Part shown: in pieces, positions 48 through 6,612 of the stretch
Layout of the letters: each line of letters opens with the position of its first letter
Position numbering within the stretch: position 1 is the first letter of the stretch
Assembly (NCBI RefSeq): GCF_024497955.1
Contig: NZ_JANHKP010000007.1
Location: 1-64,000 of the forward strand
Source of the DNA: Streptomyces sp. C10-9-1
GTDB lineage: Bacteria; Actinomycetota; Actinomycetes; Streptomycetales; Streptomycetaceae
DNA: 64,000 nt
Reading direction: 5' to 3'
Position numbers and translations under genes: made by a program
The notes under the pieces: generated by a model
The model's input: the letters and a program-made list of their open reading frames with translations, nothing else
What the model was told of the DNA's origin: nothing
The model's database searches: none

Positions 48-2189
48 TCAGCCGCTGACACTCGCACTGCAGAGACGAACCACGCTCCTGCTCGTCAGTG
101 ACTCAGCCAGCTCTGACAGGTCTGAAAGAGTCAGTCCTTGACCGAGCGTGTAAGTCGCGAGCACATGCCCACGGATTACCGATTTTACGTCTCCGACGCC
201 AACGTCAATACCTGCCTCCTGCAATTCACGCAGCAGCCTCTCTCCTCGTGCCGCTGCAGCCTCGGGCAAGTTGGAACCAGGAGGAATTTCTTTCCTTTTC
301 CTGCATACGATGATCGAATCAAGGTTCGAGGGTTCATTTCCACCCTTCGTGACACTCGTGCTCATCTCACCCTTGATGGGTTGAATAGCCGTAACCCCAA
401 GCCCGGCGTTAGTCAGTGCCTCCACAAGGCTTACCCACCCTGTCAACCGAGCCTGGTGAAAGGTGAAAGCCAACAAGCCTCCCGGCTTCAAGATGCGCTC
501 GCATTCCTTCCAAACACGCGAGATCGCATCACCGAACTGCCTCGGATCAGCGCTCTGCACCTCTTCCATTCTTCTTGTTGTCTGGGCAACTGATGGGTAT
601 CCCGAAAAGGGCTCCATCCCCATGAGCCAAGCGTGGAAGAAATCGGCAAGTTCCGAGTAGTGGACGTTATCCATATAGGGTGGATCAGTCACGATGAGGT
701 CCACGGACCCTGAAGGCAGATCGGTGCGGGACGAATCACCGTTCCGGAGGTAAATCTGCCTCGTACCAAGCCCCTGCTCCGGCCATGCGTCGAGGGGTTT
801 CCCCTCGAACGGGACAGACAAGCCTGTGGTCCTCTGTACAGCGCCATTAATCAGCACCTGGTCGAAGGGATCCGTCTTGTAGTCGTGTGCGCGAATAATG
901 CGGCTACGGAAAAGCGTAGAAAATGATCCAGACGACGCAGGTGTGCCCCAAGGGTGTGCCTCGAGGGGCATACGCTCAGGTTTGAGGATGTGATGACTGA
1001 ACATGTGTCTGACGGCACCTGTCCCTTCCCCCTTGAAGGAACAGAACATGTTGTTAAATTCGAGCGTTCCTGAGAATAGCGCAACTAGGGCCTCTCGCTC
1101 AGCATCGCCCGCGCTTACATCACGAATCGCAGAACCGAGCAACCCCAGCGAATAAAGTTGCCGCTCATTAAAGAATTGACGCCATTCCGTGAATCCCCAC
1201 CGCATCGCCTGGCGGGTGTTCTCCCCCAGCTCAAGTTGACCGACCGGCAGCACGAGGTCACGTTCATTGGTTTGCAGTAGGTCAACGCACTCTGCATACA
1301 GAGACCTATCAAAGGCGTTGATGGGTTCATACCGCTTCTTCCCGTCAAACCCTAGAACAAGCTTTGCATACATTTCACGCTTCGGGGCTTTCCCCTTCAA
1401 AGCATCAAGCACTTTGGAGGTATGCCCGTTAGCGCACGTAACTTGGGTGCGATTCACTGCGCCGGCGCGCTCAAACTTATGGCCGTTGCGGCATTCCGCT
1501 GATGCAAAGTCGTATCGTCCAGCCTGTACGTCCAAGCATACCGGGCAAACGATTTGCGCCTCAGGAACCCTTTTAGGATAAGCGTGCTGCGAGAAAACAT
1601 GGGTCGAGAAAAGCCGGGTGCTTGCCTCGCAATGGGGGCAGTGGGCTACTGCGACCCAGAAGTAGTAGAGAACCGGCTCGCCGTTTTCAGTACGATGAAC
1701 TCGATCAATCTCTTCACGGCATTGTGACTCGACAATCTTGAAGGCTCGGCGCAATTCAGAAACATCCCATTGCTGCACAGCCTGACGTTGAACCAGAGTA
1801 GCAACCGGATTAATATCCGAACCGATGACGCTTGCGCCCATTTTTACTGCTTCGACAACAGTCGTACCGGAACCCGCGAACGGATCAAGTACAACCAAGC
1901 CATCAAGATTCGTAGCACTGCTGTAAGTCTTAAGCGCGTCGCTGTCTGCTTCAGTGACTGCAGCCGCAATGATACCGCGGAACACACTCCCCAAGCGCTT
2001 GGCCCACCATTTATGAGTACTCGTAGCAGGGCGATGAACTTCCTTACGCCATGACTCATTCTCTGCGATCTTGCTGAGTTCGACCGCAGGGAACGCCGCT
2101 TCTAGCGCGGACGAGCTTGGGATGCCCCGATGACATTGCACGTCAGCGTCGAAGAGAGCCAAGTGATCAGAATGGTTCATCGTTCTCAT
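48..2189 (-). CDS. DNA methyltransferase, DUF1156-like, with zinc-ribbon inserts
   Basis: A 713-residue protein that probably methylates adenine N6 or cytosine N4 in DNA. The AdoMet motif LDPFAGSGTT lies at 101-110 and the catalytic DPPY motif at 502-505. This order, with about 400 residues between, resembles alpha-class enzymes with a large target-recognition insert. The N-terminal stretch HKWWAKR (59-65) resembles the start of DUF1156-type methyltransferases. Cysteine pairs CPHC (184-187) and CPVC (215-218), plus single cysteines near 233 and 252, suggest zinc ribbons in the insert. The gene starts 27 bp after the nuclease gene at 2217-2972 on the same strand, so the two probably form one operon. 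A second in-frame ATG lies at 2180. Codon use and base composition are less GC-biased than in the rest of the window, which points to recent acquisition. Confidence 0.85.
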   Translation of the reverse strand: MRTMNHSDHLALFDADVQCHRGIPSSSALEAAFPAVELSKIAENESWRKEVHRPATSTHKWWAKRLGSVFRGIIAAAVTEADSDALKTYSSATNLDGLVVLDPFAGSGTTVVEAVKMGASVIGSDINPVATLVQRQAVQQWDVSELRRAFKIVESQCREEIDRVHRTENGEPVLYYFWVAVAHCPHCEASTRLFSTHVFSQHAYPKRVPEAQIVCPVCLDVQAGRYDFASAECRNGHKFERAGAVNRTQVTCANGHTSKVLDALKGKAPKREMYAKLVLGFDGKKRYEPINAFDRSLYAECVDLLQTNERDLVLPVGQLELGENTRQAMRWGFTEWRQFFNERQLYSLGLLGSAIRDVSAGDAEREALVALFSGTLEFNNMFCSFKGEGTGAVRHMFSHHILKPERMPLEAHPWGTPASSGSFSTLFRSRIIRAHDYKTDPFDQVLINGAVQRTTGLSVPFEGKPLDAWPEQGLGTRQIYLRNGDSSRTDLPSGSVDLIVTDPPYMDNVHYSELADFFHAWLMGMEPFSGYPSVAQTTRRMEEVQSADPRQFGDAISRVWKECERILKPGGLLAFTFHQARLTGWVSLVEALTNAGLGVTAIQPIKGEMSTSVTKGGNEPSNLDSIIVCRKRKEIPPGSNLPEAAAARGERLLRELQEAGIDVGVGDVKSVIRGHVLATYTLGQGLTLSDLSELAESLTSRSVVRLCSASVSG

Positions 2190-2216
2190 CCAGTAGGGGC
2201 TGTCGTGGGATGCGCC

Positions 2217-2972
2217 TCACGGCTTCATGCCAACTTCACCAGCCGGATCACTCTTTGCCCTAAAGGCAGTGAAGGCGCGAGTGAATCCGGCTGTCGGATT
2301 ATCTGCCAACTCCGTGCGCAATGAGTTATCGCGGAAGTCGAAGGTGTACTTAGCTGCAATCTTATCAGCATCGGCCCGAATCAGGGAGCCGACCTCCCTT
2401 AGACTATCAGCCCCGTCAAGCACCTCGCCCTTACGTGCGATCAATGTGCAATTCGAGGTCAGGCCATCTGCCAACGCATAAGGCGTAGGAGCGACATACA
2501 TTTTCCGATCACGCACCAAGATATCGCCATAGGATCCAAAATCGCGGAAGCTGTCATTCTTATGCACATAGTCATGGTGAGCGTTCAAGAAATCGCCATG
2601 ACAGATTACTAGGTCAAGGACCGGGAACTGATCTCCCTCGAATTTTTTCGGGTAGCGTCCGAAGATGTAGTAAACTGATTTCCCTTCGTGCATGCCCGTC
2701 GCGAGCTGACTATTGCAGTCGAAATCTGCCTGCCTCCCGGGAGTCTCCAAGCCCTTCACCTCGAATCCTTCGGGGTAGTCAGTCATGACGTAGTCAGGAT
2801 ATTTGTTCCGCTTGGTTACTTCCCATGAAAATCCTGTTTCGGCGATTCGGTCACCGACCCAATCCTGAAAGTGGAACTCTTTATCCCGCCTGGTCCTGCG
2901 GCGAATCAATTCTCCACGCTGCATGGCGTCGTAGCAGGAAATGAAAACTGAGGCAAGTGTCATAATTGTCAC
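2217..2972 (-). CDS. Probable restriction endonuclease, PD-(D/E)XK fold
   Basis: A protein of about 251 residues. The sequence NKYPD (56-60), then ten residues, then the EVK triad (71-73) form a PD-(D/E)XK nuclease signature. The family as a whole is not one I can name. It stands directly upstream of the DPPY methyltransferase gene on the same strand with a 27-bp gap, the usual layout of a type II-like restriction-modification pair. I chose the GTG at 2972 because AAAGGG lies 7 bp in front of it. An ATG at 2963 and a longer reading frame from 3035 are also open. The base composition matches the methyltransferase and is unlike the chromosome. The role is inferred from the motif and the neighbour, so another nuclease-type defence function is possible. 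Confidence 0.7.
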   Translation of the reverse strand: MTIMTLASVFISCYDAMQRGELIRRRTRRDKEFHFQDWVGDRIAETGFSWEVTKRNKYPDYVMTDYPEGFEVKGLETPGRQADFDCNSQLATGMHEGKSVYYIFGRYPKKFEGDQFPVLDLVICHGDFLNAHHDYVHKNDSFRDFGSYGDILVRDRKMYVAPTPYALADGLTSNCTLIARKGEVLDGADSLREVGSLIRADADKIAAKYTFDFRDNSLRTELADNPTAGFTRAFTAFRAKSDPAGEVGMKP

Positions 2973-3192: not shown

Positions 3193-4182
3193 CTACGGAA
3201 GGCGCCGGCCGCGGCTCTCTGCGACGCGCAGGACTTGGCCCAAGGCTTCCGTGAGGTCTGCGGAAGTTGCATGGAGAGCCACCGGGTCGGGCTTCGGGAG
3301 GCTGAGCAACTCGATGGCGCGGTCCAGTACCTCGGCCGCCTGGTCGAGGTAGGTCCTTTCGAGGGTGTCGGCCAGGCGAGACATGCGGCTGCTGTCGCCG
3401 TCGGTGCTCAGGAAGCACGGTTTGCCGTCAGGGCCGGACCACGGGAGGAGCCGCAGTTCGTCGCGGGAGGTCATCTGCCTGTCTCCCCTTTCCTTGAGTG
3501 TCGGGTGGGTGGTGAAGACCGCGTCTGCGGCATCGCTGGGAAAGGCCAAGAGCGCGGCTTCGATCACGCGGCCAGCGGAGTTGAGGGCGATGCTCGTGAT
3601 AGTGAGAACCGTCCGTGTGGTGCTGATGCGGAGGGCACTTGCCTCTTCCCGGGTGGGGAGGCGGGCTGTGACCGTCTCCCTGGTTTCTGTACGGGCCGCG
3701 TCCCAACTGCCGGGCCAGGAGGACGAGGCGAGTTGTGCGGCTGGTGCGAGGTCGCGGGGGATGTAGATGCGGGCCACGCTTCGGGGGGTCTCGCCCTCGT
3801 AGGTGGTGCAGTCGAACTCGGTCAGCGGAGTGTTTGGCGGGACCTTCAGGAGGGTTCTGATGTGGCCGCGGGCCCTGAGGTTGGTCGTGCGGATGGTGGT
3901 CTGGATGTCGGGGGCGAACGGCATACCGGCACCTCCCGTGTAGGTGATGCGGCGGAGCGGGGCGCGGACGAAGTTGCCCTTGCCGTGGGTCTTCTCGATG
4001 AGTCCTTCGGCCTGGAGGAGGGCGAGGGCCTGGCGGACGGTCGGAGTGCTGACCTTGTAGTGGGTGGCCAGCTTGGGTTCCGAGGGGAGGCGGTCTCCGG
4101 GCTTGAGGTGGCCGGCGGTGATCTGGGTGCGGAGGTCTTCGGCGATGGTGTCGCGGAGGGTCGGCACGGTCGGGGTCACCAC
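3193..4182 (-). CDS. GntR-family transcription regulator with UTRA-like domain
   Basis: A 329-residue DNA-binding regulator. Residues about 8-75 form a winged helix of the GntR type, with GDRLPSE after the first helix, VSTPTVRQAL as the recognition helix and GKGNFV as the wing. Residues 90-230 resemble a UTRA ligand-binding domain. The C-terminal 100 residues are extra and contain a helical stretch. The start overlaps the stop of the 74-residue gene at 4176-4400 (GTG at 4182, with another GTG at 4179), so it is the last gene of a tightly coupled five-gene unit. GntR regulators of the KorSA type are common in integrative elements, and the island context fits that. The ligand and targets cannot be told. 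Confidence 0.85.
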   Translation of the reverse strand: MVTPTVPTLRDTIAEDLRTQITAGHLKPGDRLPSEPKLATHYKVSTPTVRQALALLQAEGLIEKTHGKGNFVRAPLRRITYTGGAGMPFAPDIQTTIRTTNLRARGHIRTLLKVPPNTPLTEFDCTTYEGETPRSVARIYIPRDLAPAAQLASSSWPGSWDAARTETRETVTARLPTREEASALRISTTRTVLTITSIALNSAGRVIEAALLAFPSDAADAVFTTHPTLKERGDRQMTSRDELRLLPWSGPDGKPCFLSTDGDSSRMSRLADTLERTYLDQAAEVLDRAIELLSLPKPDPVALHATSADLTEALGQVLRVAESRGRRLP

Positions 4183-5135: not shown

Positions 5136-5888
5136 ATGCCTGAGCAGCCGCCATACCTCCGTATCGCCGACGAACTGCGGCGGCGGATCGCGGAGCACGA
5201 GTGGACCCCTGGAGACCGGCTGCCCTCACGGGCCCAGATCGGCCAGGAGTGCGGGGTGGGCGAGAACGTCGTTCGCCGGGCCCAAGAGCTGTTGATCTCC
5301 CAGGGCGTGTTGGAGGGGCGGGCCGGGTCCGGGACCTATGTGGCCGAGCCCCGGCTGCGGGTGCGGATGGTGCGGTCCGCGGCGCGCGAGCAGCCCGACG
5401 GGTCGCCATTCCGGGCCGACATGAAGGCCGTCGGGCGGAACGGTGGCTGGGAAAGCCGGACTGATGCGAAGGTGCCCGCGTCGGCCGAGATCGCTGCGCG
5501 GCTCGGGATCGGCGAGGGCGAGCTGTGCGTCCGGACCGTATACGAGTTCCTCGCCGACGGGCGGCCCGTGCAGCTGTCGACGAGCTGGGAGCCGTACGAC
5601 CTCACCGGCGGTACCCTCGTCGTTCTGCCCGAGGGCGGGCCGCATGCCGGGGCCGGCGTCGTGAACCGGATGGCCGAGATCGGCGTCACCGTCAGCCACG
5701 CCGTCGAGCAGCCCGAGCCGCGGCAGGCCACCGCTGAGGAAGCCTCACTCCTCGGAATCCAGAAGGCCGCGCTCGTCACCCACATCCGGCGCACCTACTA
5801 CAGCGACCAGGGTCCGCCCGTGGAGACGGCCGACATCGTCGTGCCCGTAGCACTCTGCGAGATCGTCTACGAGATCCCCATCAAGTGA
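5136..5888 (+). CDS. GntR-family transcription regulator (HutC/UTRA type)
   Basis: 250 residues. The N-terminal winged helix (about 5-70) has GDRLPSRAQIG and GVGENVVRRAQELL as its helix-turn-helix and GRAGSGTYV as the wing. The rest (about 80-245) is a UTRA-type effector domain with the FLADGRPVQLSTSWEP stretch typical of the family. No ribosome site is visible before the ATG, which directly follows the operator, so the transcript may be leaderless. The close operator makes self-repression likely. It differs from the GntR protein at 3193 in length and C-terminus. Confidence 0.88.
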   Translation: MPEQPPYLRIADELRRRIAEHEWTPGDRLPSRAQIGQECGVGENVVRRAQELLISQGVLEGRAGSGTYVAEPRLRVRMVRSAAREQPDGSPFRADMKAVGRNGGWESRTDAKVPASAEIAARLGIGEGELCVRTVYEFLADGRPVQLSTSWEPYDLTGGTLVVLPEGGPHAGAGVVNRMAEIGVTVSHAVEQPEPRQATAEEASLLGIQKAALVTHIRRTYYSDQGPPVETADIVVPVALCEIVYEIPIK

Positions 5889-6568: not shown

Positions 6569-6612
6569 TCCTAAAGCGGGTGTCGCAGGTTCGAATCCTG
6601 CCGGGGGCACCA
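6569..6612 (+). other. tRNA-Arg(CCU) 3' fragment, attachment site of the element
   Basis: The segment runs from the anticodon-loop sequence CTCCTAAA through a complete T-arm (GCAGGTTCGAATCCTGC) and a 3' acceptor strand to an encoded CCA end. The bases to its left do not pair with the anticodon stem and there is no D-arm or 5' acceptor, so it cannot be a working tRNA. The anticodon reading is CCU (arginine). Starting exactly at the anticodon loop is typical of tyrosine-recombinase crossover sites. The intact gene is expected left of the window. Confidence 0.8.

Follow-up and report, generated by a model that had tools for sequence, protein, structure and literature searches.

Restriction endonucleases of the EcoRV/HincII branch stand next to a cognate methyltransferase (MTase), and it is these enzymes that the nuclease described here resembles in size, in its PD...(D/E)xK motif on neighbouring strands, in its best fold matches and in its adjacent MTase, although no similarity to solved enzymes could be detected in its sequence. 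The MTases of EcoRV and HincII are far smaller than the MTase found here. EcoRV and HincII, like BglI and PvuII, are PD-(D/E)XK enzymes of the beta branch (PMC4081073). The MTase of our locus is in turn closest to BrxXI of BREX type 3 and to the DUF1156 MTases found in BREX-related (BR) systems and in those of the Hma type, which it resembles in its amino-MTase motifs, its 'HKWWAKR' start and the order of motif I, a long, partly cysteine-rich insert, and DPPY. It differs from them in being shorter (about 700 aa, compared to profiles of 900–1000 aa) and in having a small stand-alone endonuclease as partner, with no linked BREX core. In the NruI and Sbo13I systems, likewise of two genes, a PD-...-EVK endonuclease is paired with an atypical DPPY amino-MTase (PMC2890505). 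However, the MTase of NruI has 267 aa, the motif spacing is PD-X21-EVK, the genes run in opposite directions and the published NruI N-terminus is unlike ours; MTase size, motif spacing and N-terminus led us to reject an NruI/Sbo13I identity for the pair. Finally, HEPN RNases are known to ride with restriction–modification (R-M) systems, as PrrC does with EcoprrI, and operons that combine MAE_28990 HEPN proteins with DNA methylases and a ParB-like protein have been described (PMC3710099), so that a HEPN association is not in itself new.

We analysed a stretch of 64,000 nucleotides from Streptomyces sp. C10-9-1 (the window), which starts at base 1 of contig C7 of this genome. A small nuclease and a large MTase encoded at its start very probably constitute a compact Type II R-M system, with the following features:

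48 to 2189, minus strand: large DPPY amino-methyltransferase (DUF1156-/BrxXI-like), 713 aa, the predicted cognate modification enzyme
675 to 686, minus strand: catalytic motif IV, DPPY (residues 502–505)
1422 to 1640, minus strand: cysteine-rich stretch (residues ~184–256), within the large insert that separates motif I from DPPY
1860 to 1886, minus strand: AdoMet-binding motif I, DPFAGSGTT (residues 102–110)
2217 to 2972, minus strand: predicted restriction endonuclease gene, PD-(D/E)XK, EcoRV-like, 251 aa
2220 to 2225, minus strand: site of a 1-bp deletion (CCC to CC) giving an early TGA, from alignment with three Streptomyces relatives (L016, L017, L018)
2754 to 2798, minus strand: catalytic motif P59-D60-X10-E71-V-K73, invariant in 83 homologues

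As both ORFs are on the minus strand, the nuclease gene lies upstream of the MTase gene, and 27 bases separate the two. An earlier note on this DNA had described a PD-10-EVK nuclease directly before a 713-residue DPPY MTase with several CxxC pairs and HKWWAKR, in DNA less GC-rich than the host, and all of this is confirmed by the sequence. The GC content is 54% for the pair, 67% for the flank at 3.0–6.5 kb and 75% for the rest of the window; the pair lies in an AT-rich island of a GC-rich host. Two GntR-type regulator ORFs (3193–4182 and 5136–5888) occupy the island's intermediate-GC flank, and the first shares the strand of the R-M pair. Portions resembling the 3′ part of tRNA-Arg lie near the island border at window 6575–6611 and, in the closest relative of the window, at L016:9811–9862; ARAGORN called no full tRNA at either place. 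Their presence near the border in both genomes suggests past integration at tRNA genes.

The nuclease motif reads ...YPD60-X10-E71VK73G..., and P59, D60, E71 and K73 are invariant in 83/83 aligned homologues from many phyla, showing that the active site is intact and that PD-X10-EVK is not a chance motif. D30-K-E32, D85-x-N87-S88 and R154-D-R-K157 are likewise invariant in these homologues. The window nuclease had no credible family match in Pfam, NCBIfam, PADLOC or PHROG, and a PDB sequence search gave nothing of note, the matches to gp120/gp160 (E 0.2–0.7) being dismissed as chance. When the 83 homologues were scanned singly, PADLOC returned no match and Pfam two isolated ones, Chp1-like_SPOC and DUF956, each in a single member and dismissed for that reason. 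The AlphaFold model, built from 79 sequences (pLDDT 89.7), has a restriction-endonuclease-like fold. In a Foldseek search of the PDB the model came closest to EcoRV (probability 0.99) and HincII, with BglI, MvaI, PvuII and Sau3AI lower down; all of these are Type II restriction endonucleases, though the E-values are weak (best 0.008, TM about 0.37).

The 713-aa MTase (METHYLTRANSFERASE) has motif I, DPFAGSGTT, followed by an insert of nearly 400 residues, part of it cysteine-rich, and then DPPY. This layout fits the arrangement described for the BR DUF1156 MTases, in which an insert for target recognition follows core strand 2 (PMC12839542), and the cysteine-rich stretch is likely part of target recognition. 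In the structure model (pLDDT 88.9), solved structures match over the Rossmann core only.

A scan of species genomes returned 213 nuclease relatives, from many phyla, of which 80 were kept. One locus was left out of the adjacency count, its contig stopping 154 bases past the nuclease; in all the others (79/79 testable loci) a separate MTase gene is adjacent, encoding the large MTase in 76 and a C5-cytosine MTase in three. The gene ends mostly overlap or are at most 30 bases apart. The nuclease comes first in 45 of the 76 large-MTase loci and the MTase in 30, with one divergent pair, and the MTase-first loci form one group in the nuclease tree. This tree mixes phyla, as horizontal transfer would lead one to expect. 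The pair is patchily distributed: the nuclease is present in 6/394 Streptomyces genomes, and four plasmids of Actinomycetota and Alphaproteobacteria carry it with the MTase directly downstream. Clustering of the neighbouring ORFs revealed no widely shared third gene, so there is no sign that an ATPase or helicase subunit is needed. The earlier note had taken the layout to be non-standard; it is in fact recurrent and conserved across phyla, but it is indeed not captured by the family libraries searched. The further suggestion of an uncommon type II-like or defence module is supported, since the nuclease falls into no non-nuclease family, its fold search leads to restriction endonucleases and its homologues have the same kind of neighbour elsewhere.

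Among viral contigs only two nuclease relatives were found, one of them in a Tabrizicola-type four-gene set, and there were none in the GenBank phages searched. A distant relative (39% identical, catalytic residues kept) at L097:7911–8696, on a viral contig of 166 kb, has no MTase and adjoins a gene that reads like ThyX; it is possibly a phage-owned nuclease. Five other Streptomyces genomes have an MTase 48–50% (n = 4) or 30% (n = 1) identical to that of the window and lack this nuclease; related MTases therefore have other contexts, which tells somewhat against the Type II reading. The four with 48–50% identity (L148–L151), which have no nuclease of the same family nearby, possibly represent a different system using the same MTase type, and in L148 a ResIII-type helicase ORF adjoins the MTase. 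The same MTase type also occurs on a viral contig (L142:14–4107), where it is immediately preceded by a 606-aa protein whose DndB-like match is borderline (E 8e-7, narrowly below the cut-off).

The large MTase itself can be replaced. In seven loci (L060, L081, L095 and L118–L121, the last four added by another genome search and coming from the class of the L060 genome) a C5-cytosine MTase (PF00145, ~375 aa) takes its place. The C5 MTases compared are about 55–71% identical to each other, with a conserved variable region. For the C5-paired nucleases, a quick nuclease tree needs two changes, but a single clade is not rejected (AU p 0.77). The nuclease side varies as well. A search of Streptomyces with the MTase found in one genome (G025) an enzyme 59% identical to that of the window, but its partner is a different protein of ~306 aa, and the large MTase stands beside such a protein in the viral contigs L143 and L144 too. 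The ~306-aa family has no Pfam, PADLOC or PDB match and carries E-V-K-K, D-x-N-S and G-x-G-T-x-x-D-G blocks; its alignment with the nuclease family by hhalign (probability 97.9%, E 3e-13) identifies it, at the level of sequence profiles, as a distant subfamily of the nuclease standing beside the same large MTase type. Taken together, these loci suggest that partners have been exchanged within a Type II R-M lineage. Modular exchange of this kind is expected of restriction and modification enzymes bound by a common target, which we infer for these pairs.

In a minority of loci the R-M pair has further company. A GmrSD_N (DUF262) gene and then a HEPN gene adjoin it in L009, L050, L052, L073, L086 and L016, and L096 carries the same four-gene set as L086. 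In L009, L052, L073 and L086 all four genes share a strand and overlap or follow each other closely, and in L016 the GmrSD_N–HEPN pair is convergent with the R-M pair. The HEPN RNxxxH and DUF262 DGxQR motifs are kept. PADLOC likens the accessory pair to PD-T4-2 (DUF262 + HEPN) and NsnA, with a clear match to PD-T4-2_A (E 4e-28) and a weak one to PD-T4-2_B (E 1.6e-4 in one member, no match in another). It differs from PD-T4-2 in that its HEPN protein is about twice the length of the PD-T4-2_B profile and accompanies an R-M pair. The linkage and the RNxxxH motif would fit the logic of EcoprrI–PrrC, a HEPN RNase carried along with an R-M system, although EcoprrI is Type Ic and PrrC an ABC-ATPase–HEPN fusion, compared to a Type II system with separate DUF262 and HEPN proteins here.

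The genome of the window also has GmrSD_N–HEPN genes, at C14:231421–234295, across a contig break from the R-M pair (low-GC gene pair at L128:5650–8069, on contig C14). The closest relative of the window is S. roseolilacinus (L016; 96% and 98% identity), whose low-GC island of ~10.0–16 kb contains all four genes. The end of C14 corresponds to L016:12980 and the start of C7 to L016:12973, and by this comparison the contigs abut with a gap of a few bases. The end of C14 thus adjoins window base 1, and the AT-rich island extends beyond the window. An IS630-like transposase ORF (family read from its sequence) lies between the HEPN gene and the end of C14, at L128:8336–9397, and is not in L016; the insertion is possibly tied to the assembly break.

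These arrangements raise the possibility, which we hold only tentatively, that the pair is the R-M core of a larger unit, in which nuclease, MTase, GmrSD_N and HEPN RNase would cooperate and the HEPN protein would be kept inactive until restriction fails or is inhibited and would then be set free, like PrrC beside EcoprrI. The one-strand four-gene sets, the kept motifs, the shared island in the genome of the window and the earlier HEPN–methylase operons all speak for it. However, more than 70 of about 84 loci are without the HEPN pair, the two pairs in the genome of the window are convergent rather than one operon, and DUF262 and HEPN proteins also make separate systems, such as PD-T4-2 (PMC10952713). 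We regard the GmrSD_N–HEPN pair as a likely accessory second line of defence and not a required part of the Type II system.

The window copy itself carries a lesion. Compared to S. roseolilacinus and two more Streptomyces (L017, L018), one C is missing from a CCC run beside 2222–2223, and the resulting frameshift stops the nuclease ~17 residues early, past the conserved core, so the window copy could be inactive. It is conceivable, if improbable, that this copy is decaying, with a dead nuclease and the MTase alone active, a reading that concerns the copy and not the family and that would suit both the deletion and the transposase ORF near the locus on C14. Against it, the tail removed is variable and poorly conserved, relatives such as L015 and L007 terminate shortly past the same point, and every catalytic and conserved residue is intact; the homopolymer deletion may be real or a sequencing error.

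We consider it very unlikely that the MTase is a BREX or BR methyltransferase to which the nuclease is a mere auxiliary effector. The MTase does resemble the corresponding models, matching DUF1156_antiphage (E 1e-34), PglXI (3e-24) and HmaB (4e-21), and BR systems, besides having DUF1156 MTases with such an insert, can carry PD-(D/E)XK nucleases (PMC12839542). These matches are significant, but the MTase remains below the curated cut-offs of the DUF1156 models, with 13.9 bits against 24 for Pfam DUF1156 (PF06634) and 119.8 bits against 1000 for the best match, NCBIfam DUF1156_antiphage (NF042963). The likeness noted earlier to DUF1156 MTases is thus correct, while formal membership of the family is not supported. 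Furthermore, the genome has no PglZ gene above cut-off, and the neighbourhoods lack the widely shared third gene that a BREX core would give; on these two grounds we rejected BREX or BR membership. Equally implausible is a methylation-dependent nuclease (Type IIM/IV-like) beside an MTase that is there by chance or as its target maker, since the almost constant presence of an adjacent MTase, from one or the other of two unrelated classes, fits protection and an enzyme next to an MTase making its own target would be self-damaging.

For the Type II system that we favour, the small nuclease would most likely be a homodimeric, Mg2+-dependent endonuclease of the EcoRV branch that cleaves entering phage or plasmid DNA at unmodified and probably palindromic sites. 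In host DNA the large DPPY MTase would methylate the same site, at N6 of adenine or N4 of cytosine, its long cysteine-rich insert presumably reading the sequence. A palindrome-avoidance scan of ~90 loci, with no control set, gave many low palindromes, e.g. CTCGAG, CAGCTG, AGGCCT and CTAG, from which we derive no specificity.

Type II R-M systems as a kind are already known, and REBASE may already list members of this family as putative. In the libraries and papers searched we found neither the endonuclease family nor its coupling to a BrxXI-like MTase, nor an exchange with C5 enzymes, and a literature search with the sequence words of the family found nothing. As neither general nor defence-specific libraries recognised the nuclease, surveys relying on them probably miss this half of the system. 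Our data thus point to a widespread restriction endonuclease family, present in many bacterial phyla, that these libraries do not recognise. That a single nuclease family is naturally found with an amino-MTase in some loci and a C5-MTase in others predicts a common target site; a simple two-gene system could then serve to test the specificity of DUF1156/BrxXI-like MTases, which are poorly understood. With the recurrent GmrSD_N–HEPN neighbour one could ask whether a PrrC-like second line also exists in Type II systems. A bolder picture, to which we give rather low credence, is a large, uncatalogued Type II family that swaps nucleases and MTases of unrelated classes while conserving the target site, and that has a GmrSD_N–HEPN back-up built in to kill the cell or arrest it once restriction is evaded; if true, it would be the Type II counterpart of PrrC/EcoprrI.
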